A DNA stretch of 64,000 bases, from positions 37,429,976 to 37,493,975 of the forward strand of contig JAOWCC010000019.1 of the NCBI GenBank assembly GCA_030867875.1, given 5' to 3'. The stretch's first letter is position 1. Each line of letters opens with the position of its first letter. The position numbers were made by a program, and so were the translations under genes. The notes under the pieces were generated by a model that saw nothing but the letters and a program-made list of their open reading frames with translations, was not told the origin of the DNA and did not search any database. Below are positions 20,545-40,113 of the stretch, piece by piece. This DNA is from Actinernus sp. WN-2022 (lineage: Eukaryota > Cnidaria > Anthozoa > Actiniaria > Actinernidae).

Positions 20545-21769
20545 CAGAAGAGCAGATCGTTAATCTTGCTGACGATTCAGACGTGGGATACATTCTCGAA
20601 GTCGATCTTGAGTATCCTAAAGAACTTCACGACTTACATAACGACTATCCAATAGCTCCCGAGAGAATGCAAGTAAATAGAAGGTTAATTGTTATCACCT
20701 CATCAAATCCATCTATATGATGAACTGTACAAAGGTAATGGATCTTTGAAAGTGGAAAAGCTCGTACCTAACCTATACAACAAAGAACGATATGTGCTCC
20801 ACTACCGTAATCTACAACTGTATCTATCTCTTGGAATGCGCCTAACGAAGATTCACAGAGCACTACGATTCGACCAATCACCATGGATGGAACCATACAT
20901 ACGAATGAATACAGAACTACGAAAACAAGCGAAGAGCCCTTTCGAGCAGGAACTCTACAAACTAATGAACAATAGCGTTTTTGGTAAGACAATGGAGAAC
21001 CTACGAAAACGTGTAGATGTCAAACTAGTGCGATCTTCAGAAGGAGTCAAACTACAACGTCTCTTGAATAAACCTAATTATGCCCGATCCACGATCTTCG
21101 ATGACGATCTAGCTGCTGTACACAACTACAGAAGTAAGCTACTTTTGAACCGTCCAGTATATGTAGGAATGGCGATTCTAGATCTTTCGAAACATCTGAT
21201 GTACTACTTCTACTATAATGAGATAAAGAATCAGTATGGACAACGTTGTAATCTACTATATACTGACACCGATAGTCTATTACTTCACATTGAAACGGAA
21301 GACATCTATACAGACATTGCCACCAATAAGCATCTATACGATAGTAGCAACTACAGCAAGGATCATCCTCTATGACATATCCAACAAGAAAGTACTTGGT
21401 AAAATGAAAGACGAATGCGGAGGTATTCCCATCGTCGAATACGTTGGACTACGACCTAAGCTATACTCGATCCTGAAAGTAGGTGGTAGCGAGATTAGGA
21501 AAGCCAAAGGTACCAAGAAGGCAGTTGTCAAACATTGTATTCGCCATGAACAATACAAAGAGTGCATACGAGATGAGAAAGTATTTCGCTATGGAATGGA
21601 TATGCTTAGAAGTGAAGGTCACAGGATGTATGGTATTCATATGAATAAGATATCTCTCTCACCATTCGACTCTAAGCGTTGGATCTCATCAAACGGAATT
21701 GATACATTAGCCTATGGACACAAAGACTTAGACATAGATGAGCTTATTTGCGAGATACTATCTTCTTAG
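20545..21769 (+). pseudogene. Protein-primed family B DNA polymerase, C-terminal half
   Basis: This corresponds to the palm, fingers and thumb region of the Polinton/adintovirus pPolB (family known for protein-primed replication). Motif A region: EVDLEYPKELHDLHNDYP. Motif B: LMNNSVFGKTMEN. Motif C: YTDTDSL at about 21261. The exonuclease domain and upstream part are missing: viral similarity starts abruptly at about 20,545. Frame changes occur near 20,685 and 21,370, each consistent with a 1-2 base indel. The 3' end overlaps the convergent integrase by 26 bp. It is non-functional as it stands. The flanking 20.25-20.54 kb shows no viral sequence. Confidence 0.8.
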
Positions 21770-22778
21770 ATCGGTTGGGTACGAATAGGATTCCCTTCGG
21801 TGGTAGTTCAGTATTTGGTGGAACTACTTGTAGCTCTTCGCGTACGAACCCTCGCTTCGGTGCATCTCCTTCCAAATAGTACAGAACTGGCTGGTTTGAA
21901 GATATCACACTACGTGAAATAATATACGTCTGTAAACTCCACACGGGATCAGTTGCTCGTTTAGATCCGTCTTCCAATTCTCCAGACGCATAGAGATATC
22001 GAACTTGAACGTCGAATGGTAGCCGCTTTTCTTTCAATCCAACAGTACGCGAATACGTAGGAGTCTTTACGTTGACTTGCTGTACCACTACGGAATTCGA
22101 AGGCTCTTTACCAGTAAGTCGAGTGACTTCATTATTCATGGCTTCGATAACTTCTGGAAGCCGCAATACCCATTCTCTACTGCGCGCATCCGATCCTTCT
22201 GAAGTAAGTACCATCTCTTGTGCATATTGATATCCAAACAATCTCTCCGCTAGCGTTCTATTTGCTCGCTCGACAAAACTTTGTGCTCTATGATTACCAG
22301 CTTCACCTCGTTGAACTTTAGTACCACGTAGTTCTAAGGCTTCAGACATACGTCCCATGAATTCTCTACCAGGATCTACTTGCAACGTCTTTGGCCATTT
22401 GAGTGGACTACGCTTGTAGATTCGTTCAAAGGCTGCAGCCACTTCACCGCTATCTTTCGATGCTAAGGGCTCAGCCTCTTTATATCTAGAAGCTACATCG
22501 ATTACCACCAAAGCATACTTATATAGTTTCCTTCCACGTCCAGGCCGATCGTGAGGTAGGAATATCAAATCAGCTTGGTGAACTTCATTAGGTTTCGATA
22601 CAGTCCAATGTGGTCGTGGTGTATATCGTGGTGGTGGTAAGTAGATCTGCCATAGTGCTTGTTTCTCTAACCAACTCCTAGCTGCGTCTTCCGATACTTT
22701 TGCTGCCGCCGATAGTTTACCAATTGCAGAGTGGCCTTTCCAGTATCCTTCAGGGCCATAGAAGATAGCATCCATCAT
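21744..22778 (-). CDS. Polinton-type retroviral-like integrase (rve)
   Basis: An intact 344-aa ORF. The rve core has Asp70 (HQADL), Asp135 (QVDPGREF) and Glu170 (FVERANRTLAERLF), about 34 residues between the last two; YKYALVVIDVASRY is also typical. The C-terminal part (FDVQVRYLYASGE... REELQVVPP) resembles the SH3/chromo-like DNA-binding tail. No N-terminal HHCC zinc site is visible. In Polintons/adintoviruses it inserts the viral genome into host DNA. The ATG follows a TTATATATAT stretch. It is convergent with the polymerase fragment. All catalytic residues are present. Confidence 0.85.
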   Translation of the reverse strand: MMDAIFYGPEGYWKGHSAIGKLSAAAKVSEDAARSWLEKQALWQIYLPPPRYTPRPHWTVSKPNEVHQADLIFLPHDRPGRGRKLYKYALVVIDVASRYKEAEPLASKDSGEVAAAFERIYKRSPLKWPKTLQVDPGREFMGRMSEALELRGTKVQRGEAGNHRAQSFVERANRTLAERLFGYQYAQEMVLTSEGSDARSREWVLRLPEVIEAMNNEVTRLTGKEPSNSVVVQQVNVKTPTYSRTVGLKEKRLPFDVQVRYLYASGELEDGSKRATDPVWSLQTYIISRSVISSNQPVLYYLEGDAPKRGFVREELQVVPPNTELPPKGILFVPNRSKKIVSRK

Positions 22779-22784
22779 ATATAT

Positions 22785-23215
22785 ATAACACCATAACGAG
22801 GCTTCAATACGAGCCTAGTAATTGCCAGTAATCTTACCAGTAAATTCCTAGTAATTGCCAGTAATTGCCAGTAACCTTCCTAGTAATTGCCAGTAATTGC
22901 CGGTAACCTTCCCAGTAATTGCCAGTAACCTTACCAGTAATCTTACCAGTAACTTACTAGTAATTGCCAGTAATTGCCGGTAACCTTCCCAGTAATTGCC
23001 AGTAATTGCCGGTAATTGCCGGTAACCTTCCCAGTAATTGCCAGTAATTGCCGGTAATTACCGGTAACTTCCTAGTAATTGCTAGTAATTGCCAGTAATC
23101 TTGCTAGTAATTGCCAGTAACCTTACCAGTAATCTTACCAGTAAATTGCTAGTAATTGCCAGTAATTGCCAGTAATCTTACCAGTAACTTACTAGTAATT
23201 GCCAGTAATCGTCTA
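22785..23215 (-). repeat. Short-unit minisatellite within the provirus
   Basis: Dozens of ~10-12-bp variants on AGTAATTGCC, AGTAACCTTCC and AGTAATCTTACC, in higher-order runs. It lies between the start of the integrase and the end of the next gene, the longest gene-free stretch in the viral part apart from the insertion. It could be a replication or packaging element, or simple expansion; no direct evidence for either. Confidence 0.85.
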
Positions 23216-23267
23216 ATAAAAAAAAAATCTCACCAAGCGAAAAAAAGCTCGTTTTTAAAAAGCATAA

Positions 23268-23705
23268 TCATATCAAACGACTAATGACATATCCAGCGGT
23301 TAGCATTCCACCTCCAACAAAGACCAACTCACCAGTCCTCTGCGAACTCGATGGTCGATAGTAGTCTGATAAACGAGGTTCTTTCATTTCTTTGAGATGT
23401 TGTAATTGCTTACGTAATTTGTCGGATCGTACGAAAGCACGGTTAGTATCGTTTTCAGAATCGTGCGCATTACGCTCCAGACCTTCCTCTTCTTGCGCGT
23501 TGTCGTACAGTCTTTGTCGTTGTTTATTGTAGGCAATAGTGGCAGCCGTCATTTCCTCTACTGCCCTGTTGTGTCTTTCTCGTTCTATAGCAGCCCTATC
23601 GCCTCCTCCAGAAAGCATCCTAGCGAGTACGTTACCACCAGTGAATGCTGCCGCATTTAAGACAGCTCCGAAAATTACCATCCCAATTCCCGCCAACGTT
23701 GCCAT
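23268..23705 (-). CDS. Viral membrane/coiled-coil protein, unrecognised
   Basis: About 145 residues from the ATG at 23705 (MATLAGIGMVIFG). An N-terminal hydrophobic segment (~residues 1-25) is followed by a strongly charged helical region (ERERHNRAVEEMTAATIAYN, RSDKLRKQLQHLKEMKE) and a second hydrophobic C-terminal segment. This looks like a structural or membrane-remodelling protein. It is last in a minus-strand run, 9 bp after the preceding gene. Confidence 0.6.
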   Translation of the reverse strand: MATLAGIGMVIFGAVLNAAAFTGGNVLARMLSGGGDRAAIERERHNRAVEEMTAATIAYNKQRQRLYDNAQEEEGLERNAHDSENDTNRAFVRSDKLRKQLQHLKEMKEPRLSDYYRPSSSQRTGELVFVGGGMLTAGYVISRLI

Positions 23706-23714
23706 GAGCACTCA

Positions 23715-23948
23715 CTAATCAGTTGGTACGTACTTATTGTCCTCGAGATATTCCTTTGCAGCTAGGCTACCAGCCAATACTGCTATCCACTTCACGCTAT
23801 TCAAGATAGAAACGGAAGGATCGTTAAGCATTGGTTCTTTTGCCACTTTTCTTACGCCCCACCCAATACCTGTAGCTAGTCCAGTAATTATTGCGGCATC
23901 GGTGACCGTTTTCTTTAGGTCGATTGATTTCTTCTCCACCATTGTCAT
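23715..23948 (-). CDS. Small viral membrane protein
   Basis: 77 residues; starts at 23948 or 23942 are both possible. Two hydrophobic stretches (DAAIITGLATGIGWGV and VKWIAVLAGSLA) are separated by a short polar loop, a hairpin-like two-helix layout. An AGTAGTATA stretch precedes the ATG. Small membrane proteins of this kind are frequent in Polinton-like viruses; no named family was recognised. Confidence 0.55.
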   Translation of the reverse strand: MTMVEKKSIDLKKTVTDAAIITGLATGIGWGVRKVAKEPMLNDPSVSILNSVKWIAVLAGSLAAKEYLEDNKYVPTD

Positions 23949-23978
23949 TATACTACTTATGATTCCAATCTCTAAATG

Positions 23979-24197: not shown

Positions 24198-24337
24198 CTC
24201 CCGCTTTGGGCCTCTCTGCTAAGTTTAATGCTTGCCGCAAGTGCTTTTCCAGCAGCAACGCGCTTTGGATTCTTTTCTTTTTTCTCAGGTGCAGTCTTCG
24301 GAGGATCCGCAGTTATCCGATCCGTCTTTTCCTCCAT
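24158..24337 (-). CDS. Small basic viral protein
   Basis: About 59 residues from the ATG at 24337. Lys-rich with Pro (KTAPEKKEKNPKRVAAG), no membrane segment; it could bind DNA or the virion core (inference from charge only). The ATG is preceded by CTACTATATCGAAGCAAG, nearly the same as the sequence before the F-box/ankyrin gene (CTACTATATCGAAAAATC), which supports this start. Confidence 0.5.
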   Translation of the reverse strand: MEEKTDRITADPPKTAPEKKEKNPKRVAAGKALAASIKLSREAQSGSWNAKENRVKKPT

Positions 24338-24830
24338 CTTGCTTCGATATAGTAGATATATACGAATGTTCAATAGATGTGGGAATGGCTATGTGATTAG
24401 TTACGTGGAATAAGACGCTAGCTAATGCTACGAAGCGACCTGCTTTAAGCGATAACAGACCAGTCGCAGCACTAATCTCATTGCGGATTGTTCGGTCTTC
24501 TTGTAGGTCTAGCATCAGTGCTTCTTGAGAATCTATAGGTATTAGATACGCAACTAGACGGGTAGCTAAACGCATAATACCATCGACTAGATTCCCCGTT
24601 ATTTGCTGAGCTAGGACGGCCTGGTATCTCCTATATAACTTACCTACTTCTTTTCCAGATAGTCTAGCAACGTCTCCTAGAGATAAGTTCTTCCCTAGGT
24701 ATTCTTTTGTTGTACCAGTTGCAGCTAAGATGGAAAGTGCTTCCCGGTCGTCTGTTGCATCGTCATCTATTTTCGGTGGTGGACCTGTTACGTCCTCACC
24801 AAATTGCTCAAGTATTTCTTTCTCGCTCAT
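24285..24830 (-). CDS. Conserved-looking viral helical protein, unrecognised
   Basis: 181 residues, intact. Acidic N-terminus, then LSLGDVARLSGKEVGKLYRRY and a largely alpha-helical body with LMLDLQEDRTIRNEIS; the C-terminal part is moderately hydrophobic (GRFVALASVLF). It overlaps the end of the ATPase gene by 23 bp and the following small gene by about 50 bp, so it is likely co-expressed. Function unknown; a structural role is possible from position. Confidence 0.55.
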   Translation of the reverse strand: MSEKEILEQFGEDVTGPPPKIDDDATDDREALSILAATGTTKEYLGKNLSLGDVARLSGKEVGKLYRRYQAVLAQQITGNLVDGIMRLATRLVAYLIPIDSQEALMLDLQEDRTIRNEISAATGLLSLKAGRFVALASVLFHVTNHIAIPTSIEHSYISTISKQDGGKDGSDNCGSSEDCT

Positions 24831-25446
24831 CGTGATACATAATAGGTGCGGGTAACTCTAACATGACCATGAAAGGATGTCGTAAACAAAAGCATATGCG
24901 AGCGAACTTGTGGGACCGAAGTACTGCTCGTAACTCATTACATTCTTGTGATCCTCCGTAGTCTTCAAATATCCTCTTACTATCTATAATCGATGCAGTA
25001 TGAAAGGCAACTACAATCGCTACGTTCTCGCGGAAAGGTTTGCATATGCTCGTTAATTGTTGGGATAGCACCCAAATAGATAGTCCTATATGTCGAGCAG
25101 AGAATGCTAGATCTACTAACTTGTCAGTTCTTCTTTTTACATCTTTCGAGGCGGCGCAATCATCTAGAATCAATAGCGTATTGGTCCCAGACCAGTAGGT
25201 TGCGCAAACCTCCAGTGCCGTATTGATAGCATCCTGCGATGGCGACATAACGTGGAAGTGTGGATCTCGATTGGCAAATCCACGATAGGTCTTGTTGTGA
25301 GCATGCGTAGGACATATTAATACTATATAATCGAACTTACCGCGAAATGCTCCACGAAGTTGCTCTACGAGAAATGCGGTCTTTCCACAGTTCGTTGGAC
25401 CTACTATGAGTGCGTTGAATGGTATGTGATCTACCAAGGAATCCAT
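24808..25446 (-). CDS. A32/FtsK-type genome-packaging ATPase
   Basis: 212 residues. Walker A GPTNCGKT at residues 16-23; Walker B LLILDD at about 91-96 (Asp95, Asp96); a sensor-like LSQQLTS follows. This is the pattern of the packaging ATPase in Polintons, virophages and large DNA viruses, which pumps DNA into the capsid (established role). Length fits the family. Its start overlaps the capsid gene's stop (TAATG), so the two are tightly coupled. No disruption seen. Confidence 0.85.
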   Translation of the reverse strand: MDSLVDHIPFNALIVGPTNCGKTAFLVEQLRGAFRGKFDYIVLICPTHAHNKTYRGFANRDPHFHVMSPSQDAINTALEVCATYWSGTNTLLILDDCAASKDVKRRTDKLVDLAFSARHIGLSIWVLSQQLTSICKPFRENVAIVVAFHTASIIDSKRIFEDYGGSQECNELRAVLRSHKFARICFCLRHPFMVMLELPAPIMYHDERERNT

Positions 25447-26671
25447 TAGTATGTTATACTCTGCAGTTCTCTGTTCAATATAGTGAGTTGAGCATCCGCG
25501 AGAACATAGATATGCATGTTTACGTTTCCACTGCCTTTTGCGGATCTATGTATACGAAGATCGATGTCTTTCCCACCACCCGTTTGTGCCATACCATCGC
25601 CGTGAACAGCGGAATCTTTTGCCGTACGACAATCAACTAGGATAGCAAATCTATTATTATGAAATTTGATAGGAGTCATAGAAGTATTGGATGTGGCAAA
25701 CCATCCCTTTGCAGCCTCCCAGAAATCTGGTGGTAGCATACCTCCTGGAAAGAATCTATTTGGGACTCCATTGACATCTACCTCTATCTTAGAAATGCCA
25801 GGATTTGAGAATGCTTCGCTATATCGCGTACCAGCAGTAGGTGGATCTATAAATAGTAGAAGTAGTCCAGCGAATGATCGTCGTGGAACATTGATATTCT
25901 GAGATATCAAAGTATCCGTTGCCTTGGCGATAGTTACTGTCTTGAAATGGACAGCATGGTTGTATAGGAAAGCAGTGCCTCTTTCATATGCGTTAAGTGC
26001 GTCCTTAGCTAGAGTTTCATTCTTGATCGCTTCATATTCTAACTGTATGTTGGTAAGCTTGTACGTACCTATCTTCGTCCAACTATTATTTCAACAGCAG
26101 GCGCTGGAGTCAACTCAAACGATATAGTGTCTTCTAGTGCGTGAGGATATAGGACGCCATGTTGCGTTAGGATATCGACGTCTAACGGAATTCTATATTT
26201 AGAACCATATGCGGCTAGTAGAGCGTTCTCACCGGCGTTTGAAGTGTCTTTATCGCCAGCCTTAGATCGTAACTTGCTTGCGTTCTCCGATTGGATACCT
26301 TGTTGCATTCTAGATTCTCTTTCTTGAGTAGATAGGTATACATCGGAATATGTCTGTAGTAGATCTGACCTAGCGATGTCCTCTACTATTTCAGCTCCCA
26401 TCTTACAAACTCGATGTATAACCAAGCAACGCCCAACATTGGAAACGACATGATTATTAGCGTGTCCACCAGACAATACAATATCGCCTAATAGTGCTAA
26501 GCTACCAGGTACCAATACGATGTTTTCTCCTAGCGTTGGTACTTCCACATATAGCGTCTCTCCAGGGTTGGCCGATGACGGGGTGAAAGTTTTCCTATAT
26601 AGAGTTCGTGGAGCCTTGAGTGCTCGAGGTTCTCTTTGCGCTTTTGCAGGAACTAACTTCGACGCTATCAT
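25446..26671 (-). pseudogene. Double-jelly-roll-like major capsid protein, one frameshift
   Basis: Two abutting frames form one protein of about 408 residues. The upstream part (26671 to about 26070) has LVPGSLALLGDIVLSGG and RIPLDVDILTQHGVLYP; the downstream part ends KDIDLRIHRSAKG and NMHIYVLADAQLTILNR. These match the beta-rich organisation I associate with Polinton-type MCPs (recognition by eye, not a search), and the gene lies next to the packaging ATPase. The upstream frame stops at 26069, while the other frame is open through 25,910-26,075. One base gain or loss near 26,070-26,080 explains this. It is shorter than many Polinton MCPs (~500-650 aa). Confidence 0.65.
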
Positions 26672-26705
26672 ATTGAATATACGTAGATATATAGTTATGT
26701 TCAAT
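26672..26705. promoter_or_regulatory. Divergent viral promoter (MCP / 26.7-kb gene)
   Basis: Only about 25-34 bp separate the two divergent ATGs. On the plus strand it carries TTGAATATACGTAGATATA, then TAGTTATGTTCAAT. The same order of blocks (TTGAA, TATACGTA, TAGTTAT, TTCAAT) occurs between the other divergent pair at 29463-29505. Confidence 0.55.
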
Positions 26706-27798
26706 ATGGAAGGCGAGGCCGCAGAGGAAATACCCGATGAAGCCGCGGGAGGCGAAGACTATAAGGATGAGGATGAGGATACTATCAATGCAGGGGAATG
26801 GAATGCAGATTTTCCAGATGACGCTACTGCATCAGGAGAAACGATCCCAATGGAAAACAGGCGCGACTATACTAAAGAAGGTGCTATACCAAAGAATCAG
26901 GAAACCTCATTTTCTATGAGCGATTACCTCGATTCGATAGGTGCCTCGAAAGACTCGAACGTTTCTAGATATCGAAAGATCCTGGAAAAAGTGAAAAATT
27001 TTAAAGCTCCTAACTTTATCGATAGAAAGGTAATCTTCAAACGAGGCTTATCAGACGACGCAAAACAAATGCTATTTGAGACTGTCTGGGAACAATACCA
27101 TGACGTAGGAGTTCGAGGCACGCTTGAGATAGCAACCATGTCTGATGGTAGAATAGCTATACGCGAGTATGGAAGTAACAAACCCCCTATCCCTTTGATC
27201 ACTAAGAAGGGTGAGTTATATAAGGTGAGGGGAAAAGGTCTCAAAATAGTTCTAGGATCTACATTAGAAGAATCGGTAAAAGAAGTCATAAAAGCTGAAG
27301 ACCAAATGATGGAGATTATCAAGCAAAACGAAGAAATACTCAAAGACCCTACGTCTACTGAATCTCAGAAAGAAGCGATCATTAAAGAAATAGGAACTAA
27401 CAAAACAGAAATGGAAGTCCTAGGACAAATAGAAGAAGCCATAACAGAACGTATGCCCCTTAGGGATCGTATAAGATCTATCTTCAAGAAGTATGGAGTT
27501 AGTATAATTAGTGTGATGGCTGCAGCAGGTACAGTGATCGGTGTAATAGTTTCCAATCTGACAAAGGCAGTTCCCGCGGCGGTAGACGCTGCCAAAGCCA
27601 CAGCTAAATACGTTGTTAAAGTGTTAAAAGAAGTAGGGAAAAAGTTAGAGGAGATCTTACCTAAGATGATTGGACCAATTGCGAGTTTCATATTTAGTAT
27701 GGCTGGTGACGTCGTTGGAATCTTAGCAAATAATGTTTGGTTGTTAATCGTAGCAGCAGTGGTATTCGTTCGTAGTAGAGCGATACAAACGACGTTAA
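26697..27798 (+). CDS. Viral coiled-coil/membrane protein (frame slips near end)
   Basis: Starts at 26697 or the second ATG at 26706. An acidic N-terminus (~80 aa) is followed by a mixed domain (RKVIFKRGLSDDAKQMLFE), a coiled-coil (EDQMMEIIKQNEEILKD), a hydrophobic helix (GVSIISVMAAAGTVIGVIV), an amphipathic stretch, and a final membrane segment (VWLLIVAAVVFV). The open frame runs on to 28097, but that tail is antisense to the next gene and W-rich, so probably spurious. In the adjacent frame a short basic end (VVERYKRR) stops at 27796-27798, overlapping the convergent gene's stop. A single-base indel near 27,765 would explain this. Function unknown; probably virion-associated. Confidence 0.6.
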
Positions 27799-29462
27799 CG
27801 AAACAACGCCCATGCGATTCCAGCTGCGGCAATAGATATCACTGCAAGATTGATCTCATGTTGTGGGATGGACTTTGGTACGTAAGTTTGTGGTACTCGT
27901 TTATTGTGTGGTACTTGTTTCTTATAAGGTGGTACTCGCTTCTTATCGGGTGGTCCCTCCATGGGAGGTGGGCGGTACGTTCCTTTAACTTCCGTATTGA
28001 TATCATTATTACCATACACCATATCTTTAGTGGCTTTCGGGGATGGATTTATATAATTATCTTTCTTTCCGAGGTAGTACACCAGATTGCTTGGTAGTAA
28101 TCGTACACCTACAGCTATCGCTAGATCAAGCCTCTTATGTGTTTTCGTTATAGCGATAAGGTAGTTATTGTAACTTGTCGTTAAGTTGTTTACCTTAATA
28201 GCGACTTCAACCAAGCTCTTGAACTCTCTTCTAACTCCATAGCTATCTACGATGGATTCATTCATATCTACTTGTGCACCAAGCATGCAATATCCAAAAG
28301 CCTCGACAGATCTATTCAACCTACCCAATCCAGCGTCTGTCAAACCTTTTCCGATTGGTGGCGTAAACCAATTGTATTGTTTTCCTCCGTGGTCATCGTT
28401 CCGAATAAAGGATACGAGATCTCCCATGTCCTCCTTACCTCCTTCATCTTTAAACAAATTATTGTGATTTGGCCACTTATCTGCTTCTTTGTCGTAGCCT
28501 CTGATTACGTGGACGTTTTTGTAACCATCGCCGTACAAAAGGAATACGTCGCCAAGTCCGTTATTCCTACCTCCGTGCCATCGGAAGTCTGGCGTTCGAG
28601 ATATACCAAACTCGATGCACAATTTCTCTAGTGCCGCTTTGCTATAGAGGTTATCGGTTTGTTTGAAGGTAGAGCTGCCGGGTAGAGGAACTCCATGAGC
28701 GCCGCCAAGTTCATGTAGGATTCTTCGTATTGTGAAATATACGTGAAATCGAAGGAAACCTTGAATGATGGGTGGATACGTTTTGAAAATAGGGTCGAAC
28801 AATGACACTCCACATCCGGAAGTTGCGCACCACGTTGCGAAATTCAATTGTTGGGGCCAGTATTTAAAATCCGGACCTGATTTCCACGCATAAGACTCAT
28901 GTGATGTTTCATGTACCACGACGGTCTCCTTAAATATATTCGGAACGCCTGCTTCAAACTTTTTAGTAGGTGTAACGTATATCCATAGATTGGTGAGATC
29001 TATATCTTGTGCCGGCTCGTTAAAAGGAACTGCTTGAATAGGATAGTTCGCACTTTTGTCTAGTGTCATCGTAGATGGGAAACCTCCCTGCACACCCCAT
29101 AGCGCGTGATCGATACGCCTTCGAATTGTAGTAGGTAACTTTGAGACATCATCACCGTAAACGACATAACTAGAATCTCCATCTCTAAACCAAATACTCG
29201 TCGAATATTTGCCTGGACCATTTATTTCCGTAGAGGCATAGAACTTGTGAAGATCCACGTGTGAGTATCTTTTCTTGAACTTCGCTAATAGATCAGCATT
29301 CAGGGTTGCGATCTTCGCGTTTTCCTTGGCCTTCGATGCTTCGATCTTCGCGTTTTCCTCAGCTTTTGGCCGTAAATTAGCATTCCGTATTGGGGTCTCA
29401 TCATCTCTCTCGTCGTCTCCCCCCTCATAATGGTAGCTGAAATTACCTCCGTGCCTCCTCAT
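27795..29462 (-). CDS. Large unrecognised viral protein, C-terminal membrane anchor
   Basis: About 555 residues from ATG 29462 (MRRHGG; starts at 29483 and 29531 also possible). A charged Ala/Lys/Glu-rich helical stretch near the start; a globular middle with NLWIYVTP, KYWPQQLNFATWCATSGCG and RFHVYFTIRRILHEL; then a Pro/Lys-rich repeated linker (PPYKKQVPHNKRVPQ) and a terminal hydrophobic helix (INLAVISIAAAGIAWALF). HETSH fits HExxH, but no third zinc ligand is clear, so a protease role is not claimed. The topology (globular head, flexible stalk, C-terminal anchor) suggests a virion surface or inner-membrane protein (inference). Intact, and the longest uninterrupted gene of the provirus. Confidence 0.65.
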   Translation of the reverse strand: MRRHGGNFSYHYEGGDDERDDETPIRNANLRPKAEENAKIEASKAKENAKIATLNADLLAKFKKRYSHVDLHKFYASTEINGPGKYSTSIWFRDGDSSYVVYGDDVSKLPTTIRRRIDHALWGVQGGFPSTMTLDKSANYPIQAVPFNEPAQDIDLTNLWIYVTPTKKFEAGVPNIFKETVVVHETSHESYAWKSGPDFKYWPQQLNFATWCATSGCGVSLFDPIFKTYPPIIQGFLRFHVYFTIRRILHELGGAHGVPLPGSSTFKQTDNLYSKAALEKLCIEFGISRTPDFRWHGGRNNGLGDVFLLYGDGYKNVHVIRGYDKEADKWPNHNNLFKDEGGKEDMGDLVSFIRNDDHGGKQYNWFTPPIGKGLTDAGLGRLNRSVEAFGYCMLGAQVDMNESIVDSYGVRREFKSLVEVAIKVNNLTTSYNNYLIAITKTHKRLDLAIAVGVRLLPSNLVYYLGKKDNYINPSPKATKDMVYGNNDINTEVKGTYRPPPMEGPPDKKRVPPYKKQVPHNKRVPQTYVPKSIPQHEINLAVISIAAAGIAWALFR

Positions 29463-29505
29463 ATTGAAGCTATACGTATACATAGTTATACCTTCAATAT
29501 ATAAG
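29463..29505. promoter_or_regulatory. Divergent viral promoter (578-aa gene / penton gene)
   Basis: A 43-bp spacer reading TTGAAGCTATACGTATACAT, then AGTTATACCTTCAATATATAAG on the plus strand, directly followed by the penton ATG. Compared with 26672-26705, both have TTGAA, TATACGTA, TAGTTAT and TTCAAT in the same order. Confidence 0.55.
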
Positions 29506-30171: not shown

Positions 30172-30190
30172 GTTATATGCATAATGTACG

Positions 30191-30820: not shown

Positions 30821-30947
30821 GAATAGATATCTCCTATGAAAGGAACTCACGTGGATTTTATTTTAACTAAGCTAAGAGCGAAATCGTATAAATTCCAACA
30901 TCAGAACACCAATTAGAGATAAGCTAGTATAAGGTATATATCGCACT

Positions 30948-31370
30948 ATGGCTGAGACGATAACTTGTATTTGGTTGATGCGAGGTAAGGACACGAATTG
31001 TGTAAAGAAGCGTTCGAAGATATCAGAATACTGTTCTCAACACAACTATCAAATGCGAAAAGGGTGTACCTTATATGTTCCATGTACGCAGTGTGGCCGT
31101 GGTTGTCGTACTAGTCACGGACTTTGTGGTGTGGGGTGTGGCGAGCCAGAGCTCCGTAGAATTTACAAAAAGAATAGCCTCAATAAGAAACGATCTAAGG
31201 AGTTGACGAAGGAATCGGAGAAGGATCCCCCAGAGGATAAGTGTTTAGTTGTGGAAATCAATGATGAGTGCGAAGTTGCGAAATGTCAAGTTGTGGAACT
31301 GAATAAGATATTGGCGGACCTCGCAATCAGCGAGAAAGATCTAAATGTGGTAGAATCGGAGGATGAGTAG
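30948..31370 (+). CDS. Cysteine-rich zinc-binding viral protein
   Basis: 140 residues. The first ~65 contain two clusters: C7, C18, C29-x2-H32 and C46-x2-C49, C53, H57, C60, C64, likely two or more zinc sites. The remainder is acidic and charged with two further Cys. It has a TATA-like GGTATATATCGC just before the ATG. It precedes the TFIIB-like gene, so a role in viral transcription or DNA binding is a reasonable guess. No named family recognised. Confidence 0.55.
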   Translation: MAETITCIWLMRGKDTNCVKKRSKISEYCSQHNYQMRKGCTLYVPCTQCGRGCRTSHGLCGVGCGEPELRRIYKKNSLNKKRSKELTKESEKDPPEDKCLVVEINDECEVAKCQVVELNKILADLAISEKDLNVVESEDE

Positions 31371-31381
31371 AATCGTGGTAT

Positions 31382-31452: not shown

Positions 31453-31493
31453 ACAATTAGACGATAGATAACCCTACTGTATACGCTACTAGT

Positions 31494-32298
31494 ATGGACG
31501 ATCTTCTTAGATTGCTTGGTCCTGAAATTTGCGCAAGTCTACATATCAATCCTCTTACTCCACAGTTACAACTTAACCCAAGGGAAACATGCTCCGAGTG
31601 TCTCTGCTCGATGGAAGTGCAAGGAACGGAATTAGTTTGCTCTACGTGTGGTTTCGTTTCTGAGATTGAACTGTGTGAAGAAACGGTTAACGTTACTACT
31701 CGGCTGCGTATGGTAGGTCCGGATAACTTTAAGTATCAACATGATCTAGATCGTACGAACCCCCAGAAATGGAATAATCAAGAAGCGCAACTACAAACGA
31801 TTATGCGAGAATTGCAAACGTATAACGCTGTTTATAAACATAATTATGGTCTATCGTTTCCTATGAACATATTGGGAATCGTAGCCGATGCATTCATCCA
31901 AGCGAAGAAAGTTTGTCCTATGCGTGGTCGAGTTAAGAGAACTATCCTAGCTGCACTACTTTACCATGCGTGTATACAATGTGGGTTCGTTCGCTCTAAG
32001 GGTGAGGTCGCTAATTTCGTACAACTAAATAATAAACGCATCCATCGTGGTAATGACTTTCTACGATCGCTACATGCAGATGGTAGGATTGATATGGATG
32101 TAGATGCCGATAGTATGACTCCTCACATCGTAACGACTCTTGCTAAACTCGATCCTCAAGGAGCATTTAAGGATATCCAACGAATAGTCCATGAGATCGT
32201 TCATATGGTAATAGAAAGGAACATAGGTGCCAGTTCCATGCTTCGGACTAAAGTCGTTGGGGTAAGCTACGAGGTGCTACAACGTTTAGGATTACATA
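31494..32298 (+). pseudogene. TFIIB-like transcription factor, 5' part (interrupted)
   Basis: Residues 33-52 form a CxxC-x12-CxxC zinc ribbon (CSECLCSMEVQGTELVCSTC). A B-reader-like linker and cyclin-fold helices follow (PMRGRVKRTILAALLYHAC, then SKGEVANFVQLNNKRIHRG). TFIIB recruits RNA polymerase II to promoters; TFIIB-like or VLTF3-like factors are known in large DNA viruses. The frame is native to 32298, where the 6.7-kb element begins; the next ~15 codons come from the TIR. The rest of the gene is at 39030-39217. TFIIB genes are not standard Polinton cargo. Confidence 0.7.
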
Positions 32299-32499
32299 TA
32301 ACACGTTCATTTTTAAAACACGATTTTCAAAAGTTAGAAAAATAGGTCAAAATATTCATGTTTGCCAGAAAAAATTGCCTTACTTTCTGGATCGAGTCAA
32401 AACAATATTGTTGTTTCAGATGAATTTGACCTTGGAAGTAAAAGAAACCCAGATAATAACAAAACATTACTGAAATTTCAAAATACATTTTCTGAAATA

Positions 32500-33335
32500 G
32501 TGCTTAAGAATGTTCTTGGTACATTGCAGTCAAGATTTGTAGGACGCACAGATCAACTGAAAACGTACTCAGGAAATTCCGGAGTACTTTCTAGGCAAGA
32601 TTTGTTTCCACGCTGAGATCAAATGAAAAAGTACTCAGGAAATTCCGGAGTACTTTCTAGGCAAGATTTGTTTCCACGCTGAGATCAAATGAAAAAGTAC
32701 TCAGGAAATTCCGGAGTACTTTCTAGGCAAGATTTAATACCATTCTGAGATCAACCGAAAAAGTACTCAGGAAATTCCGGAGTACTTTCTAGGCAAGATT
32801 TGTTTCCACGCTGAGATCAAATGAAAAAGTACTCAGGAAATTCCGGAGTACTTTCTAGGCAAGATTTAATACCATTCTGAGATCAACTGAAAAAGTACTC
32901 AGGAAATTCCGGAGTACTTTCTTGGCAAGATTTGTTTCCACGCTGAGATCAAATGAAAAAGTACTCAGGAAATTCCGGAGTACTTTCTAGGCAAGATTTA
33001 ATACCATTCTGAGATCAACTGAAAAAGTACTCAGGAAATTCCGGAGTACTTTCTAGGCAAGATTTGTTTCCACGCTGAGATCAAATGAAAAAGTACTCAG
33101 GAAATTCCGGAGTACTTTCTAGGCAAGATTTAATACCATTCTGAGATCAACTGAAAAAAGTACTCAGGAAATTCCGGAGTACTTTCTAGGCAAGATTTGT
33201 TACCACTCTGAGATCAACTGAAAACGTACTCAGGAAATTCCGGAGTACTTTCTAGGCAAGATTTGCTACCATTCTGAGATCAACTGAAAAAGTAGTCAGG
33301 AAATTCCAGAGTACTTTCTAGGCAAGATGTATTAC
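32500..33335 (+). repeat. Left subterminal 66-bp tandem array
   Basis: About 12-13 copies of a 66-67-bp unit. Each includes GTACTCAGGAAATTCCGGAG followed by TAC, an imperfect palindrome, then TTTCTAGGCAAGAT. Two variants alternate (TTGTTTCCACGCTGAG and TTAATACCATTCTGAG), showing higher-order structure. Confidence 0.9.
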
Positions 33336-36300
33336 CACAATATAAATGCCGACTTGTATTAATAATCGAAGCAATAACAAAACGTCTTTACCTGACGACA
33401 GTACTCAACTATGCACAACAGGAGAGCAAGAGGCTAAAATCTGAACATGTGTAGAAAGCTGAACTTTAAAGCATGCATGCTATTAATAAATATGGATAAC
33501 ATTGTTCGTTTTCATTCATACATTTAAAAACGACTAAGAAAAACCAAATCAACTTTAGCTTCATCAAAAATGTATGTATGCTAAAAGTATCTAATTATGA
33601 CATTGCGTTGCTTCACCTTGAAACAATCTACATGTATTAGCAAGTAGAACAGGGTTTTACAGGGCTCTACAGCTTCACTGTATATATTTATCAGAGTACA
33701 GACCAAAGAAAACCCTAATCTACTTGTTAAGTAGAAGCTGCAAGTGCTTCTTCAAAGTTTCAGTCTCCGAATTTTTAAGTGATACAGGATACCTATTTCG
33801 AAATATTTGGAACATGTAAACTGGACCATTTTGACTTATAATTTGAGGTACTCTTTTAAAGTGTCTAATTAAAACTACTGTACAGATTCTTTTTCAAGCG
33901 ACCTGACTGAGGTAAAACTAAAAAAATACCCATAACATATTAACTAGATCCTGCTTTAATTTCCAACAATTTGACTCTTTTACAATAAAAACAGCTATCA
34001 AAGCTGCTCTATATGTACAAAATTTATCGTGCTTTATCAAATGGTATTTGAAATGTTCTTCTTCCTGCCTTCCTGATATAAGCTATCTAGTTTTTATTCT
34101 CTTTCATCTCTGCTCTACAGCAACAATTCTCTGAAAAGAAAATATTCGTTTGTACATTAATGTGAGGCATCAATAGTGATAGAGTGGGATTATGAGATTA
34201 AAAGAGACAGAGCTCTCGTTTAGTGTTGAAGCAATGTAAGGCGGCTATAAGGCTATTTCATAAGAGGTCAAAATTCGTTACTTATTAAAGAACAACACAT
34301 GTAATAAAAGCGCTCGTGCGACCATTAAAAATATTATCGGGCTGTTTGAGGCAAGCGAAACTGATACCAATATCGCAACATAAATGAGATGCTGTTTTGA
34401 TTAAATAGGAAATGCCATGACAATTGACAACTCACAGAACTCGAGATAAATTTTCTCGAGTTGAATCAGTATGCCGCTATAAAAGAAACATGAATGGGCA
34501 TTAGCCAGACACCGAATCTTATACCAGTATCGTACACATCGATTAATTTACACACATTAATCTAACTTTAGTTCTTAAAAAAAATAACTAGTATTGATCG
34601 GCGTTGGCGGGGAAGATAAATATAGCGTGGCAAAAAAAGCTGGAAGTAGTAATATTTGAAACTTAACTACGAAATTGTAGTACGGAGTTTGGATTTAACT
34701 AATGATTTGTATCGCAACATTCGATTTTAAAATAGAGTTTTGATTTAATGAGTTTGTCATCTGAAACAGATTATAAACATTGTTTTCAAGATTTCCGCCT
34801 TTCAAATTAATCGGGTCGGTAATTTACGGCAGTCTTTCAATTAATTGGGCTATTCGGTGGCCCGCTGTTCACGCTCTAGCGTTTAGAGCGTCAACTGCTT
34901 ACAAAGGAAAACAATTAAAAAAATTACTCAAGGGACTAAGAAACCGTGAGTATGTTTATACGTAAACCGTCGGCGCTCAATTCAAACCACCTTAAAGTAA
35001 GAAAACGCAAGACACGGGGAGTGCAATTTTTATTGCTAAGGGGGTGAAATTTCCTAGGCAAAATGTCTAGGAAATTTGCACCGGTAGTGCAACTTTCCCG
35101 GGACATCGGAATAAATGGAGCAAGTTTGTGGGCGAGTCTGCATTCGAAACTAACAACAGCACAACATAAAAATGTTATTCGCCTGCTGTTCAATAACAAA
35201 AAAAAAGAAAAGTCCGAATTTGAATGACATTTATTTGTGGCATGCTTGTTGACAGTTCCTGGATTTGTCAATGGCGGATTTACGCAATTTGGAACCTACG
35301 CTTACATGGTGAATGATATGCCGATATATTATTAAATGCTAAAGCTTTCTTTAACACATCACTGCACTACTTTGAAGCCTGAGCGTTAAAGTTGTAGTTT
35401 AACCAAAGTCGGTAAACACAAGAGGTTAGCAGGCAAATATTCGGCACTGAGATTAAATTGAATAAATTTCTTCAGTTCAATAAACCTTGATTGACTGCTA
35501 TTTTCAGAACCATACTATAATAGCTGCACGTACTTAGTACTAATCGTAGGTAATCGGTGCTCCAAATATCTTGTGAGTTGACTTTGCTTTGATTTTGCTT
35601 AGTTTGGTTTTGAGAGCTTGATCACTCGATCGTCGCGGAAAGTGAAAGTAATCTTGATCTATAAATCACACTACACGCGCTTTCTTATTAGTAATTTGCA
35701 CAAATATTGTTTTTCAATGTCAAAACAAAAGCTACGAATTCTTACCTTCGACATGCGTGTAATCCCAAGGCATTCCTATGAGGAACTAGAGCGCCATATA
35801 CTTTTATATCCTCGTACGTCATGCCAAAATGACGGTTAATTAATTATAAATACGGTTTGTGCTACTGGTATTCAAATTTTCAGAATCATAAGATCAGTCC
35901 GTGATCCGATTGGTTAAAGTTGACACTTATCTTGACACGTCAAGTTGTGGGGATATTCAATTTCTATCCACGGACAGAGAAACACCATGGATATGCAGAG
36001 AACAAGAATACACAATTTCCTTTGATCATTGATCCAACAACACGAAAAACGAGAACATTATAGGACCACAGATCTTTATATCGGAGATTCCAAACGTACT
36101 GTAACAGACGACACTACTTCACATGAAGATTGAAGGAGTCGATCATTAATGGATGGACATTCCACTCAAAATGACTGAGTGGAGCCGAACAATCAGAGCA
36201 GTCTCATAACTGTTTGATGCATCCCCTTGATGCATCACAAGACTGTGTAAAAGTACATCCAACAAGGCAGAGGACAAGCTTTCCAAAGGTAGAAAAGTAT

Positions 36301-37879
36301 ACCAGTAATTGCACTTTGAGTTATACATTTCTCGCTCATGTACTCAGACTGCCAGATTTCACGTGGTCACTTCTGTAAATCGATTCTCAGAAGTCATTTG
36401 GTTGCACTGCCAGGAAAAACGTAAACACAGGAAAAGCTGCTAGCAGTCTACAAATCAAAGAATGTGTGAAGTCTAGGTTCACTTGGCACCCGAAACGCCA
36501 GTGAATTAGTTAGATAATAATCACCAAGTTCGAAAATGTTATACTTCAAAATTTAAGGCCGGGAGGGCGGGCGGCAGCAACAATGCTATGGGATCACGGC
36601 TGAAATGTTTGAGGCGAGTAATTAACCTTCCTTTCCGTTATCAAGTACTCGAGTTTCTAAATTGAATAGATTTAGCAACTTAATAGAATACCCGGCCACT
36701 TTTGAAGACATATTACCTAAAATTAACTGCCACCGTGGTCGTCATCGGTCTGAAGTCGATGAATACGAAAAATACCCCGTGAAAATAACTGCAAGCGTGA
36801 CTACGACCGCGGTGGCAGTGATTCTATGACAACGTGGAGTGGACGGGTATGCTAAAGTGCAGCCTCCATTAGGTTTTGAAAAAGTGAATAACATTAGTTA
36901 ATTTAAGAAGAAAATAAAATATATATCTGCGGACAATCGAACATGAAAACTAATTTTCTCTTCATAGATGCACAATACATCTCTGCTTTTAGGGTTTGAC
37001 AGCTTCCTTTAAGGAGTCGATTAACCAACAATTATTGAATATAATAGACTGTTGGTCTTGCTTTACAAGGCGGCCAAGCATTAGTTTAAGAAGAATGCTC
37101 ATATACAATGTATTATCGGTTGTTTCCAAACTTCCAAAATATTACTTATAGTTTGCTGGCGTTCTGCTTTGCTAAGATCAGTAAAACTTGGCTGCTGCTA
37201 ACATGATCGAGGTAATACACCTAGTCGTACAGTATTGTGTGGCTCCAAAAAAAATTATGGAGAGTTTTGTAATTACGAGCAAAATATAATAAGTTTATTT
37301 CTTAGCCAGCCTAATTGGTATTTTGGAGGTACACTTCAGTGATGGCCCGCATTGTGAGGGCAAATTTATTTTTTATTTACCTACTACATTAGCTTGTTCA
37401 TGGCGGCTGAGACTTAGTTGTTATGGAAATGTTAATATTAGTGAACGCGGCCTTTGTAAGTAAATGGAACCACATGTTGATGGATTCAATAACACAATGA
37501 CAAGATTCACACAGTCATGGAAAGTCATTAAATTTGAAAATTGCTTTCCTGTAAGTCTGGAAAAGTAGTGGAATAAGGCATTACATCATGGAGGATTCAT
37601 AGAAATTAGGATTTTGGCCCATATTATTTTAAGCTAATGATTGGAAAATAAACAAGTTTGGATTATTTGTGTCAAACATCAAACTTTTGGCTGCAAGAGC
37701 CATAAACTTTGCTTACAGCTTAGAGCAGTACTTTTGTCAGTGGTCGTGGCTCTGCATTTTGAGGTCATGGACATTGTTTATCAATTTAAGCCTTATACCA
37801 CATATATGTGCGGAATACTGAATGAGTTCCAGAGTGTAAGAAACGTTTCTAGAGAGGTCCTTGTAATTTTATTTTCAGT

Positions 37880-38690
37880 TGATCTCAGAATGGAATTAAA
37901 TCATGCTTAGAAAGTACTCAGGAATTTTCTGAGTACTTTTTCAATTGATCTCAGAGTGGTAACAAATATTGCCTAGAAAGTACTCCGTAATTTCCTGAGT
38001 ACTTTTTCAGTTGATCTGAGACCGGTAACAAATCTTGCCTAGAAAGTACTCCGGAATTTCCTGAGTACTTTTTCAGTTGATCTCAGGGTGGTAACAAATC
38101 TTGCCTAGAAAGTACTCCGGAATTTCCTGAGTACTTTTTCAGTTGATCTCAGGGTGGTAACAAATCTTGCCTAGAAAGTACTCCGGAATTTCCTGAGTAC
38201 TTTTTCAGTTGATCTCAGCGTGGAAACAAATCTTGCCTAGAAAGTACTCCGGAATTTCCTGAGTACTTTTTCAGTTGATCGCAGCGTGGAAACGAATCTT
38301 GCCTAGAAAGTACTCCGGAATTTCCTGAGTACTTTTTCAGTTGATCTCAGGGTGGAAACATATCTTGCCTAGAAAGTACTCCGGAATTTCCTGAGTACTT
38401 TTTCAGTTGATCTCAGCGTGGAAACAAATCTTGCCTAGAAAGTACTCCGGAATTTCCTGAGTACTTTTTCAGTTGATCTCAGGATGGTAACAAATCTTGC
38501 CTAGAAAGTACTCCGGAATTTCCTGAGTACTTTTTCAGTTGATCTGAGACCGATAACGAATCTTGCCTAGAAAGTACTCCGGAATTTCCTGAGTACTTTT
38601 TCAGTTGATCTCAGGGTGGTAACAAATCTTGCCTAGAAAGTACTCCGGAATTTCCTGAGTACTTTTTCAGTTGATCTCAGTGTTTTAAAA
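37880..38690 (-). repeat. Right subterminal 66-bp tandem array
   Basis: About 12 copies of the same unit in the opposite orientation (GTACTCCGGAATTTCCTGAG). The unit is the reverse complement of the 32.5-33.3 kb array, making this part of the element's inverted ends. Confidence 0.9.
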
Positions 38691-39029
38691 ACTGCCTTCC
38701 ATATTTCTGGCAGAACAGTGTAACGTTGGAGTGAAGTTTCACTAGGAAAATAAACGTGCAGTAAGGACTTTTATGTGAACCATTACATATTGACCTTCCA
38801 CGATGATGTAGTCAATAAAGTACTAGTTGATTCTAAAGGCTGTCTTGGTGTGTGTGTTTATTAATTATCAATTCGCCAATGTTTATGACCAAAATTTTCA
38901 TGGAATGGCAACATGCCCTATAACTAAGGTATTCTTTGCCTGATCACCGGCAAAATATATCAGTAAAGACAATGTCCTTGCCAATTTTCAAAGTTTTGAA
39001 AATCGTGTTTTAAAAATGAACGTGTTATA

Positions 39030-39217
39030 TGTCTCTTAATGATGCAGTAAAGCGATGTGGTACACATAAGACCTCGGTCTCGCGTTTTCTCGATAAGTTG
39101 TTTGCTTACGATTCCTACTTCAAACCCATATATGAAAAGCATGGTCTATCTAGTTATTCTTCTTACTCACTGTCGGATTCATCATCTCCGGATCCTTCTG
39201 ATTCCTCAATATCATAG
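39030..39217 (+). pseudogene. TFIIB-like transcription factor, 3' part
   Basis: Open from the element boundary to the stop at 39215-39217. It encodes DAVKRCGTHKTSVSRFLD, which reads like the recognition helix of a second cyclin fold, then a Ser/Asp-rich tail. Its phase agrees with the 5' part at 31494-32298 when one TA is counted once. It overlaps the convergent F-box/ankyrin gene by 55 bp. Confidence 0.6.
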
Positions 39218-39942
39218 TAGCCACTTCCCCAATGGTATCCTTCTTCATCAAAGGCAGAGTAATCGTGTCTGTGATAATTTAGTATGGCATAGAGAGCATC
39301 TTCATCCACTATGGGGAGCCGGTAGTGGTTAATGAGCCACTCGATGAGCCACCTAGCAGTAGCGAAATGATCGTTTTCACAGGCATACGTTATAGTATGA
39401 TAGACGTATTCATCTCTTATGGTGAACTGAAAGCGTCGAGCAAGCCACTTAATGGTATTAAGATTGCCATCCGTACCAGCACCTAGTAAAGCAACCCCAG
39501 CGGCTCTATCCTCTTTGGTGAACTGAAATCGCTTAATGAGCCATTCAGCAATATCGAGACGGTTATCCTTACAGGCAGCGTATAGAGCATAACCGGTGTG
39601 TTCATCCTCCTTGACAAACCGTAAGTGTTTAACGAGCCACTTAATGATATTAAGATTACCATCTCTACTGGCGTAGGCTAGTGCGAAACTATCGTCTTTA
39701 TCGTTTGCTGAAATACCAAAAGTCCTAGCCAAATTGTCTCGATCGTCATCGTTGCGAGTAACCCTAAACCTTAAGGTTAGTACTAGGTGTCGGAACTCTC
39801 GGTCTACGTTTTCATAGCGTGTTATGGATGCTGCATCGTTTAAACGTTTTGAAGTCAAAGCAATGCTTGCAAGCGATCTAGGGCCTGCATGCTCTACGAT
39901 CTTAGTCAAGATTTCTAGGGGGAGGCATGATAAGTAATCCAT
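39163..39942 (-). CDS. F-box plus ankyrin-like repeat protein
   Basis: 259 residues, intact. An F-box at about residues 3-37 (LSCLPLEILTKIVEHAG... LTSKRLND) is followed by at least four ankyrin-like repeats of ~34 residues (DGNLNIIKWLVK, DNRLDIAEWLIK, DGNLNTIKWLAR, NDHFATARWLIE) and an acidic C-terminus. F-box/ankyrin proteins of poxviruses and giant viruses redirect SCF ubiquitin ligases (established there); a similar host-interaction role is inferred. CTACTATATCGAA precedes the ATG. Unusual for a Polinton. Confidence 0.7.
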   Translation of the reverse strand: MDYLSCLPLEILTKIVEHAGPRSLASIALTSKRLNDAASITRYENVDREFRHLVLTLRFRVTRNDDDRDNLARTFGISANDKDDSFALAYASRDGNLNIIKWLVKHLRFVKEDEHTGYALYAACKDNRLDIAEWLIKRFQFTKEDRAAGVALLGAGTDGNLNTIKWLARRFQFTIRDEYVYHTITYACENDHFATARWLIEWLINHYRLPIVDEDALYAILNYHRHDYSAFDEEGYHWGSGYYDIEESEGSGDDESDSE

Positions 39943-40105
39943 GATTTTTCGATATAGTAGCTATAAGGTGTGATTTTCGATATAGTAACTCATTTATGGG
40001 GTGTGATTTACCTTATACTAACCTCTCCTCTAATAGGGCGTTGAAATGCAATAAATGCACTATAGTAAGGCCTAGGGTATCAAAATACAATAATGCACTA
40101 TAGTA
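39943..40105 (-). promoter_or_regulatory. Repeat-bearing upstream region of the F-box/ankyrin gene
   Basis: On the gene strand, TTACTATATCGAAAATCACACC, given as TTACTATATCGAA then AATCACACC, recurs as CTACTATATCGAA. Another TAGTATAAGGTAAATCACACC-like block lies further up, and AATGCACTATAGTA occurs twice at 40,050-40,105. CTACTATATCGAA also precedes the 24337 ATG. This probably marks the right side of the provirus; no terminal repeat was matched to the left side. Confidence 0.4.
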
Positions 40106-40113
40106 GAATAAAC

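Follow-up and report, generated by a model that had tools for sequence, protein, structure and literature searches.

A recurrent module of TFIIB-like and F-box/ankyrin genes, probably regulatory, at the right end of a degraded Polinton-type provirus in Actinernus

We analysed a stretch of 64,000 nucleotides from the cnidarian Actinernus sp. WN-2022 (assembly GCA_030867875.1, contig JAOWCC010000019.1, positions 37,429,976 to 37,493,975 of the forward strand), hereafter the window. It contains a degraded provirus of a Polinton-type virus lineage, which is present in multiple copies in the host genome. The right arm of this provirus probably represents a recurrent regulatory module, composed of a cysteine-rich gene (p145), a TFIIB-like gene and a convergent F-box/ankyrin gene at the end of the element, and acting as a two-step switch. 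The assignment to Polintons was made because PolB, integrase and ATPase genes occur together. The copy in the window is dead, its PolB being truncated and frame-broken, its capsid candidate frame-broken and its TFIIB-like gene split by a young transposon. Intact open reading frames (ORFs) of single genes are present elsewhere in the host genome. About 13 kb of the provirus remain in the window once the insert is discounted. The left end is missing, and the right terminus was defined at position 40238 (Table 1).

A zinc-ribbon/cyclin TFIIB-like protein had been claimed in the initial annotation, which was made from the letters of the window alone, and the claim was borne out. The zinc-ribbon cysteines C33, C36, C49 and C52 were invariant in all 21 aligned TFIIB-like ORFs, 17 of these 21 relatives matched Pfam TFIIB at E ≤ 0.01, and the best PDB match of the profile was TFIIB (E 1.8e-4, residues 106-189, corresponding to the first repeat). 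Taken alone, the ribbon stretch of the profile scored 2.9 bits, no match above chance. The repeat in the window copy scored 24.4 bits against a Pfam cut-off of 23.6. Uninterrupted copies of the gene were single frames of 306-322 amino acids (aa). Twenty-eight frames were found and 21 were aligned, after exclusion of four duplicates, one frame cut by the end of its stretch, and the frames from L019 and L020. The frame from L043 had a divergent N-terminus with no start methionine there. The C-terminal region has room for a second repeat, and the tail in the window gave a weak helix-turn-helix hit (E 0.16). Judged by its sequence, the protein encoded at 31.5 kb is, together with its tail, a TFIIB-like protein whose second repeat is unproven. 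The adjoining p145 lay beside the TFIIB-like gene in all 20 genome stretches fetched, and its product kept eight cysteines and one histidine in every one of 12 selected copies.

The host genome (1.39 Gb in 1772 contigs, the window included) yielded at least 143 listed TFIIB-like matches, 147 F-box/ankyrin matches, 150 ATPase matches and 150 capsid-candidate matches. These came from 2830, 2685, 4561 and 4413 first-look candidates, respectively, which are loose seeds and not copy counts. Most listed TFIIB matches lay in open frames about 300-370 aa long, an internal stop occurring in some, and many capsid-candidate matches lay in frames of about 440 aa. The twenty TFIIB stretches were taken for the most part from the highest-ranking matches, the lowest having about 65% identity. 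The related copies keep TFIIB next to p145 and the virion-module genes, and the F-box gene was convergent downstream of TFIIB in 15 of the 20 stretches (L010-L024, about 1.6 kb away in L023). It was not detected in stretches L025-L029. The initial annotation had proposed a search for relatives with the same gene order. The order of TFIIB, p145 and virion genes indeed recurs, but there is also a second architecture (L026-L029), in which the p145-TFIIB block is inverted with respect to the virion genes. The same arrangement was seen in L038-L044, with the F-box gene upstream, downstream (L038) or not detected nearby. The p145-TFIIB module may be movable as a block.

Eight further stretches of 5 kb were taken, four centred on listed TFIIB matches and four on listed F-box matches, all without a listed partner. 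Around TFIIB, the tail, p145 and p211 were found in four of four stretches and the F-box gene in one. Around the F-box gene, TFIIB and p145 were found in three of four, the fourth having p145 and p211 and no TFIIB. Among the listed matches, an F-box gene lay within 5 kb of 29 of the 143 TFIIB copies, where 0.15 were expected by chance. Thirteen of these pairs, three of which belong to one tandem array, had the F-box gene convergent downstream, with 151-189 bp between the matched ends, and sixteen had it upstream on the same strand, at 829-1954 bp. The pair in the window is absent from the 29 because the transposon separates its members. A listed ATPase lay within 20 kb of 27 of the 143 TFIIB copies (0.62 by chance), three of these pairs sharing one ATPase in a tandem array. 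Scans of a viral contig collection found one related locus (L001), and a search of a genome contig collection with the ATPase alignment found no relatives.

Two host contigs showed repeats of their own. On C240 (855-13620), TFIIB and F-box genes occur head-to-tail three times with a period of 5,560 bases, which is either a tandem amplification of the right end of the element or an assembly artefact. On contig C144, COX1 is matched twice at full length, at a distance of 15,968 bases and each time in a 460-aa open frame without stops, and once more in part; it is probably a repeated mitochondrial contig.

The F-box/ankyrin protein of the initial annotation was likewise upheld, both domains scoring above their Pfam cut-offs. 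A protein search with it recovered one relative among 997 candidates (P0121, E 1.9e-11), which by eye has an N-terminal F-box-like domain and ankyrins. In BLAST comparisons, similarity to the right part of the window ended at 40238/40239 in L010, L022, L009, L008, L021, L016, L023 and L012, each time after ATACTACT and with different flanking DNA. The end of the element, first placed at 40105, was therefore moved to this common junction, and the F-box gene thus lies inside the element. The copies are not all independent, L009 and L008 being repeats of one array and L022, L033 and L034 near-identical. The alignment ended earlier in other copies (L011 at 40037, L014 at 40147, L018 at 39942), and the terminal 26-mer was also present in L015, L017, L020 and others. 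Within the palindromic end, the terminal 26 bases recur as an inverted near-copy, and inverted pairs about 250 bases long were seen in L005, L006, L012, L013 and L017.

The TFIIB-like gene evolves under constraint, its median pairwise ratio of nonsynonymous to synonymous divergence (dN/dS) being 0.30 (21 sequences, 209 of 210 pairs). The median for the F-box gene was 0.51 (21 sequences including duplicates, 203 of 210 pairs). Both sets were restricted to intact ORFs and included duplicates (for the F-box gene L010/L031 and L016/L032), and pairs with dS ≤ 0.02 were dropped. A codon model was built from 13 proviral ORFs and five other ORFs, three of the latter transposon-gene-like; in leave-one-out classification 13 of 13 and five of five fell on the correct side, some narrowly. 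Both TFIIB parts were consistent with the proviral model; for the other model, P was 0/2000 and 0.004.

Two classes of upstream motif divide the proviral genes. TATTGAA occurred in 7 of the 12 regions of 90 bases upstream of proviral genes, a level that not one 7-mer reached in 100 dinucleotide shuffles; for 5- and 6-mers the same level was reached in 1 of 100. As [AG]TATTGAA (class 1), the motif was located at -32, -35, -36, -36 and -37 relative to integrase, ATPase, the capsid candidate, p364 and p211, respectively, at -45 relative to p244 and at -17 relative to p563. The class-2 motif, ATTAGA, was located at -36 from p145, -38 from TFIIB and -92 from the F-box gene. No gene had both motifs, and p145, TFIIB and the F-box gene lacked class 1. 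Neither motif was found upstream of p147 and p190, nor upstream of a HECT ORF to the left of the provirus, which was the only non-proviral ORF compared and has an uncertain true start.

The partition largely recurred in relatives, which were counted by distinct upstream sequences. TATTGAA preceded p244 (16/19), p211 (20/21), the capsid candidate (3/3) and p563 (4/6); before p145 (0/29) and the F-box gene (0/21) it was absent, and before TFIIB it was rare (2/27). AATTAGA was found before p145 (22/29) and TFIIB (12/27), and the broader ATTA[AG]A[GC] before p145 (23/29), TFIIB (18/27) and the F-box gene (17/21), as well as before p244 (3/19) and p563 (2/6). Conservation of class 1 is partly confounded because several of the motifs lie within neighbouring coding sequence. 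As the relatives share descent and the motifs overlap coding sequence, the partition within the element is the stronger evidence.

We suggest the following course of events. Host machinery would first read the predicted ATTAGA promoters, so that the p145, TFIIB-like and F-box/ankyrin proteins appear early. Aided perhaps by p145, the TFIIB-like protein would then redirect host RNA polymerase II to the predicted [AG]TATTGAA (ATATTGAA) promoters, which lie upstream of the integrase, ATPase and virion genes at a distance of about 35 bases. To judge from its F-box domain, the F-box/ankyrin protein may bind Skp1 and direct host proteins to the SCF ubiquitin ligase, and the presence of its gene in the early motif class fits a host-directed role such as that of an SCF adaptor. 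The two motif classes, whose use is predicted from sequence, lend support to the earlier idea that promoter recognition may be determined by the virus itself.

The block had been described as a compact locus, a description that did not survive, as a 6.7-kb transposon sits within the TFIIB-like gene and interrupts it. The ends of the insert form a 48-base inverted match (46 of 48 identical, the palindromic flank counted in), and because the site is palindromic a TA duplication fits as well as ATAT. A repeat search found 66-bp arrays in inverted orientation at 32550-33338 and 37872-38680. The left and right segments that lie between end block and array are not inverted versions of one another (best score 23, against a shuffled mean of 19 and maximum of 27). 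For the interior halves, compared without a shuffle control, the best score was 25. The interior (33400-34600) matched 44 places in the host genome, with 40 of 138 candidates scored. These amount to about 40 copies including that in the window, of which 36 are nearly complete and four fragmented, and since they are 90-100% identical the insert is a young dispersed transposon; six copies besides that in the window were at 100%. One frame of at least 100 aa was present in the insert, without a Pfam hit, shorter frames being outside the scan. As a consequence of the insertion, the ORF at 31.5 kb ends in transposon-coded residues. The 62-codon frame at 39029-39214, the tail of the gene, matches what comes directly after the 5′ part of TFIIB in all 20 stretches of the first set (in L029 via a second copy, the first being cut) and in seven of the eight further stretches, L045 having no TFIIB match. 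The picture is complicated by L035 and L036, a near-identical pair in which the tail adjoins the F-box gene, with no 5′ part in the 3.7 kb examined.

Inverted arrays could also mean that the proteins at 31.5 and 39.2 kb come from two elements, the 66-bp arrays being the Polinton terminal repeats of two copies. However, the unit bearing the arrays has ends of its own and is dispersed in the genome as a transposon, and the 3′ part of TFIIB resumes beyond it and is contiguous in other copies; the two-element reading was ruled out on these grounds and we give it practically no weight. It is also very improbable that the TFIIB-like and F-box/ankyrin genes are host genes, or unrelated repeats, beside a Polinton fossil. 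Hosts commonly have ankyrin and F-box domains, the viral contigs scanned yielded no relative, and the codon usage of the F-box gene, which weighs against our reading of the module, is intermediate, neither model fitting well (P 0.0005 for the other model and 0.013 for the proviral one). Nevertheless, the repeated linkage at similar spacing largely refutes a host origin, and the terminus shared beyond the F-box gene, the single-frame ORFs and the motif in common with p145 all argue in the same direction. The initial annotation had named host derivation of either gene, with absence from all related elements, as the finding that would tell against it; both genes were found to recur beside virion-module genes, with dN/dS below 1.

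Other observations also weigh against a regulatory module of the kind proposed. A second cyclin repeat was undetected by sequence (internal comparison, hhalign probability 1.9%), the C-terminal part (alignment A3) had no TFIIB hit and matched nothing significant, and no TFIIB-like relative at E ≤ 1e-3 was found among 5.8 billion proteins (564 candidates). Given so weak a match beyond the ribbon cysteines and first repeat, the protein might instead be a decoy or repressor of host transcription, or an accessory to replication or packaging, rather than an activator of viral promoters. We consider this unlikely, as the ribbon cysteines and first repeat are kept under constraint and the two motif classes fit a switch. 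The motifs were found exploratorily, word lengths of 5-8 having been tried and not preset. Class 2 is the looser of the two, AATTAGA occurring in 0 of 21 F-box copies and ATTAGAG in 0 of 27 TFIIB copies, and there is overlap with the coding sequence of neighbours in the case of ATPase, p211 and the divergent pairs. If the motifs were host-type promoter or start-context signals, no viral factor would be needed for the late genes; host TFIIB could read nearby TATA-like stretches, and overlap with neighbouring coding sequence and with start codons is frequent. Against this stand the offset of -32 to -37 in five of seven genes, the clean partition of seven genes against three, and the absence of the motif upstream of the HECT ORF (a single non-proviral ORF of uncertain start), and this explanation, too, seems improbable to us. 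Finally, among the 150 ATPase matches listed, only 35 lie within 20 kb of a listed TFIIB or F-box match. Polintons lacking the module may therefore coexist with those that carry it.

Table 1. Features of the provirus and its insert, in window positions
Feature	Position	Strand	Basis or remark
PolB remnant	20556..21769	+	C-terminal third; tblastn with L001 PolB; Pfam DNA_pol_B_2 below cut-off
rve integrase	21747..22778	-	Pfam rve E 7.8e-10, above cut-off; convergent with PolB as in L001
Class-1 motif TATTGAA, integrase	22803..22809	-	
Minisatellite, 10-bp unit	22817..23209		Between integrase and next gene; repeat search
p147	23271..23705	-	ORF; no Pfam family above cut-off
p190	24288..24830	-	ORF; no Pfam match
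A32-like packaging ATPase	24811..25446	-	Pfam Pox_A32 E 2.8e-11, above cut-off
Major capsid candidate, 3′ piece	25449..26087	-	Frame broken near 26.08 kb; genome matches
Class-1 motif, ATPase	25474..25480	-	
Major capsid candidate, 5′ piece	26072..26671	-	ORF; relatives in L012, L026, L027
Class-1 motif, p364	26671..26677	+	
Class-1 motif, capsid candidate	26700..26706	-	
p364, virion-module gene	26706..27794	+	Adjoins in many related copies
p563, virion-module gene	27798..29483	-	Adjoins in many related copies
Class-1 motif, p244	29462..29468	+	
Class-1 motif, p563	29493..29499	-	
p244, candidate minor capsid	29506..30168	+	Adjoins in many related copies
Class-1 motif, p211	30155..30161	+	
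p211	30191..30817	+	Adjoins in many related copies
Class-2 motif CAATTAGA, p145	30910..30917	+	
p145, Cys-rich	30948..31367	+	Two presumed zinc-binding modules; invariant Cys/His; adjoins TFIIB
Class-2 motif CAATTAGA, TFIIB-like gene	31454..31461	+	
TFIIB-like gene, 5′ part	31494..32299	+	Zinc ribbon and first cyclin repeat; Pfam TFIIB
Target-site duplication ATAT, left copy	32296..32299		
Inserted transposon, presumably non-autonomous	32300..39026		Inverted ends, target duplication, genome copies
TFIIB-like gene, 3′ part	39027..39214	+	Overlaps 3′ end of F-box gene; comes straight after 5′ part where no insert intervenes
Target-site duplication ATAT, right copy	39027..39030		
F-box and ankyrin-repeat gene	39166..39942	-	Pfam F-box-like E 1.1e-6 and ankyrin E 2.7e-12, each exceeding its cut-off
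Class-2 motif ATTAGAG, F-box gene	40028..40034	-	Farther upstream (-92)
Right terminal palindrome, terminus 40238 (...ATACTACT)	40102..40238		Junction common to several copies, flanks differ

The gene survey covered stop-to-stop ORFs of at least 100 aa between 15 and 46 kb, with a Pfam scan of 19 ranges. The PolB remnant, rve integrase, A32-like ATPase, TFIIB repeat and F-box/ankyrin domains were recovered at the positions first assigned to them, the integrase and ATPase above cut-off; no capsid profile was matched. PolB itself could be retained as a remnant, of which only the C-terminal third is present. The Pfam match (20689-21375, plus strand, E 5.7e-4) scored 19.3 bits against a cut-off of 25.8. 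Three pieces, each in a different frame (20556-20690, 20749-21366 and 21371-21721), correspond by tblastn to residues 893-936, 958-1161 and 1164-1281 of the 1286-aa PolB of the IMG/VR contig L001, with 41-62% identity; the N-terminal two thirds were not found in the window by this search. A protein search with the packaging ATPase found 1606 relatives. No adenain/Ulp1-type protease was present among the Pfam-scanned ORFs, the left end of the element being missing, and no RNA polymerase subunits were among the Pfam hits of window ORFs. The minisatellite, with about 37 copies of its unit, lies within the provirus and adjoins the integrase start.

The claim of jelly-roll capsid proteins found no support. 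The capsid candidate occupies two frames in the window, as opposed to a single frame of about 440 aa in many other copies. There was no Pfam match above cut-off for p364, p563, p244, p211, p145 or the capsid candidate, no significant Pfam or NCBIfam match for the two pieces of the candidate and p244, and no significant PDB sequence match for the two pieces (best E 0.79 and 0.77). An AlphaFold model of one piece, built without relatives, was poor (mean pLDDT 38.7). The putative capsid roles were assigned because of the position beside the ATPase and by comparison with cnidarian Polintons, whose capsid genes the candidate presumably resembles.

Elsewhere in the window, Pfam identified a HECT ubiquitin-ligase domain in two overlapping frames (17728-18800, minus strand), 2 kb left of the provirus remnant, which may belong to a host gene or to a pseudogene. 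A 588-aa frame (12326-14092, plus strand) begins with a 12-bp minisatellite and by eye is otherwise integrase-type transposase-like. The segments 14298-14633 and 53924-54259 are 65% similar in DNA, with frames that by eye resemble reverse-transcriptase fragments, and a near-perfect inverted repeat of 504 bases (99% complementary, 50-base spacer) lies at 6698-7755.

Vertebrate Mavericks (PMC8097293) share PolB, rve integrase, an A32-like ATPase, intronless ORFs, genomic dispersal and a sharp terminus with the provirus. They differ in that the figure legend lists ppolb, atp, pm, pz, pro, Mcp, pw, mcp, int and accessory genes, with no TFIIB or F-box/ankyrin gene, and in having a protease (pro), of which none was seen among the ORFs scanned here. 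Cnidarian capsid genes were placed outside the main Maverick-Polinton cluster (PMC10120064), and a Stylophora Polinton has been described (PMC11071308). In the main text of the former, the terms TFIIB, ankyrin and F-box are absent, as are transcription, ankyrin and F-box in that of the latter. In the open-access full text covered, subscription journals lying outside this scope, no report was found of TFIIB, F-box/ankyrin or ubiquitin-ligase genes in Polintons. The viral locus L001 (IMGVR_UViG_3300028392_002905; 13.2 of 17.4 kb compared) has PolB and integrase in the same convergent order. It differs in its capsid-like ORFs, and no TFIIB or F-box gene was recognised by eye among its ORFs of at least 90 aa, with no profile search made.

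TFIIB is regarded as a giant-virus marker gene in PMC12638062 and PMC13037468. Compared with giant viruses (Nucleocytoviricota), the provirus shares TFIIB, ATPase and PolB alone, and by kind. The earlier proposal of a link with larger DNA viruses gained no support as one of descent, the TFIIB-like protein having no relative at E ≤ 1e-3 in the protein set searched. Megamimivirinae (PMC11464507) also encode a TFIIB, and their early motif AAAATTGA has five letters, ATTGA, in common with ATATTGAA, which may be chance; unlike the provirus, in which none was among the Pfam hits, they encode RNA polymerase subunits as well. Mavirus-like EMALEs (PMC8547959) are likewise integrated small dsDNA viruses with type-specific promoter motifs. 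Those motifs were read as implicating different giant viruses, whereas the provirus here carries a TFIIB-like gene of its own. A further source, PMC6211774, concerns a yeast virus-like element.

Taken further, and tentatively, the family could be a Polinton lineage without an RNA polymerase of its own, in which the TFIIB-like and zinc proteins would retarget polymerase II from ATTAGA to ATATTGAA and the F-box/ankyrin protein would remodel host proteins, a minimal form of the giant-virus strategy amplified in the host genome. The recurrence of TFIIB in a Polinton lineage, beside a partition of upstream motifs, makes a transcription programme belonging to small viruses themselves directly testable. 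The presence of TFIIB in Polintons likewise makes the passage of genes between Polintons and giant viruses testable. Even small DNA viruses of the Polinton type may control when their own genes are read.

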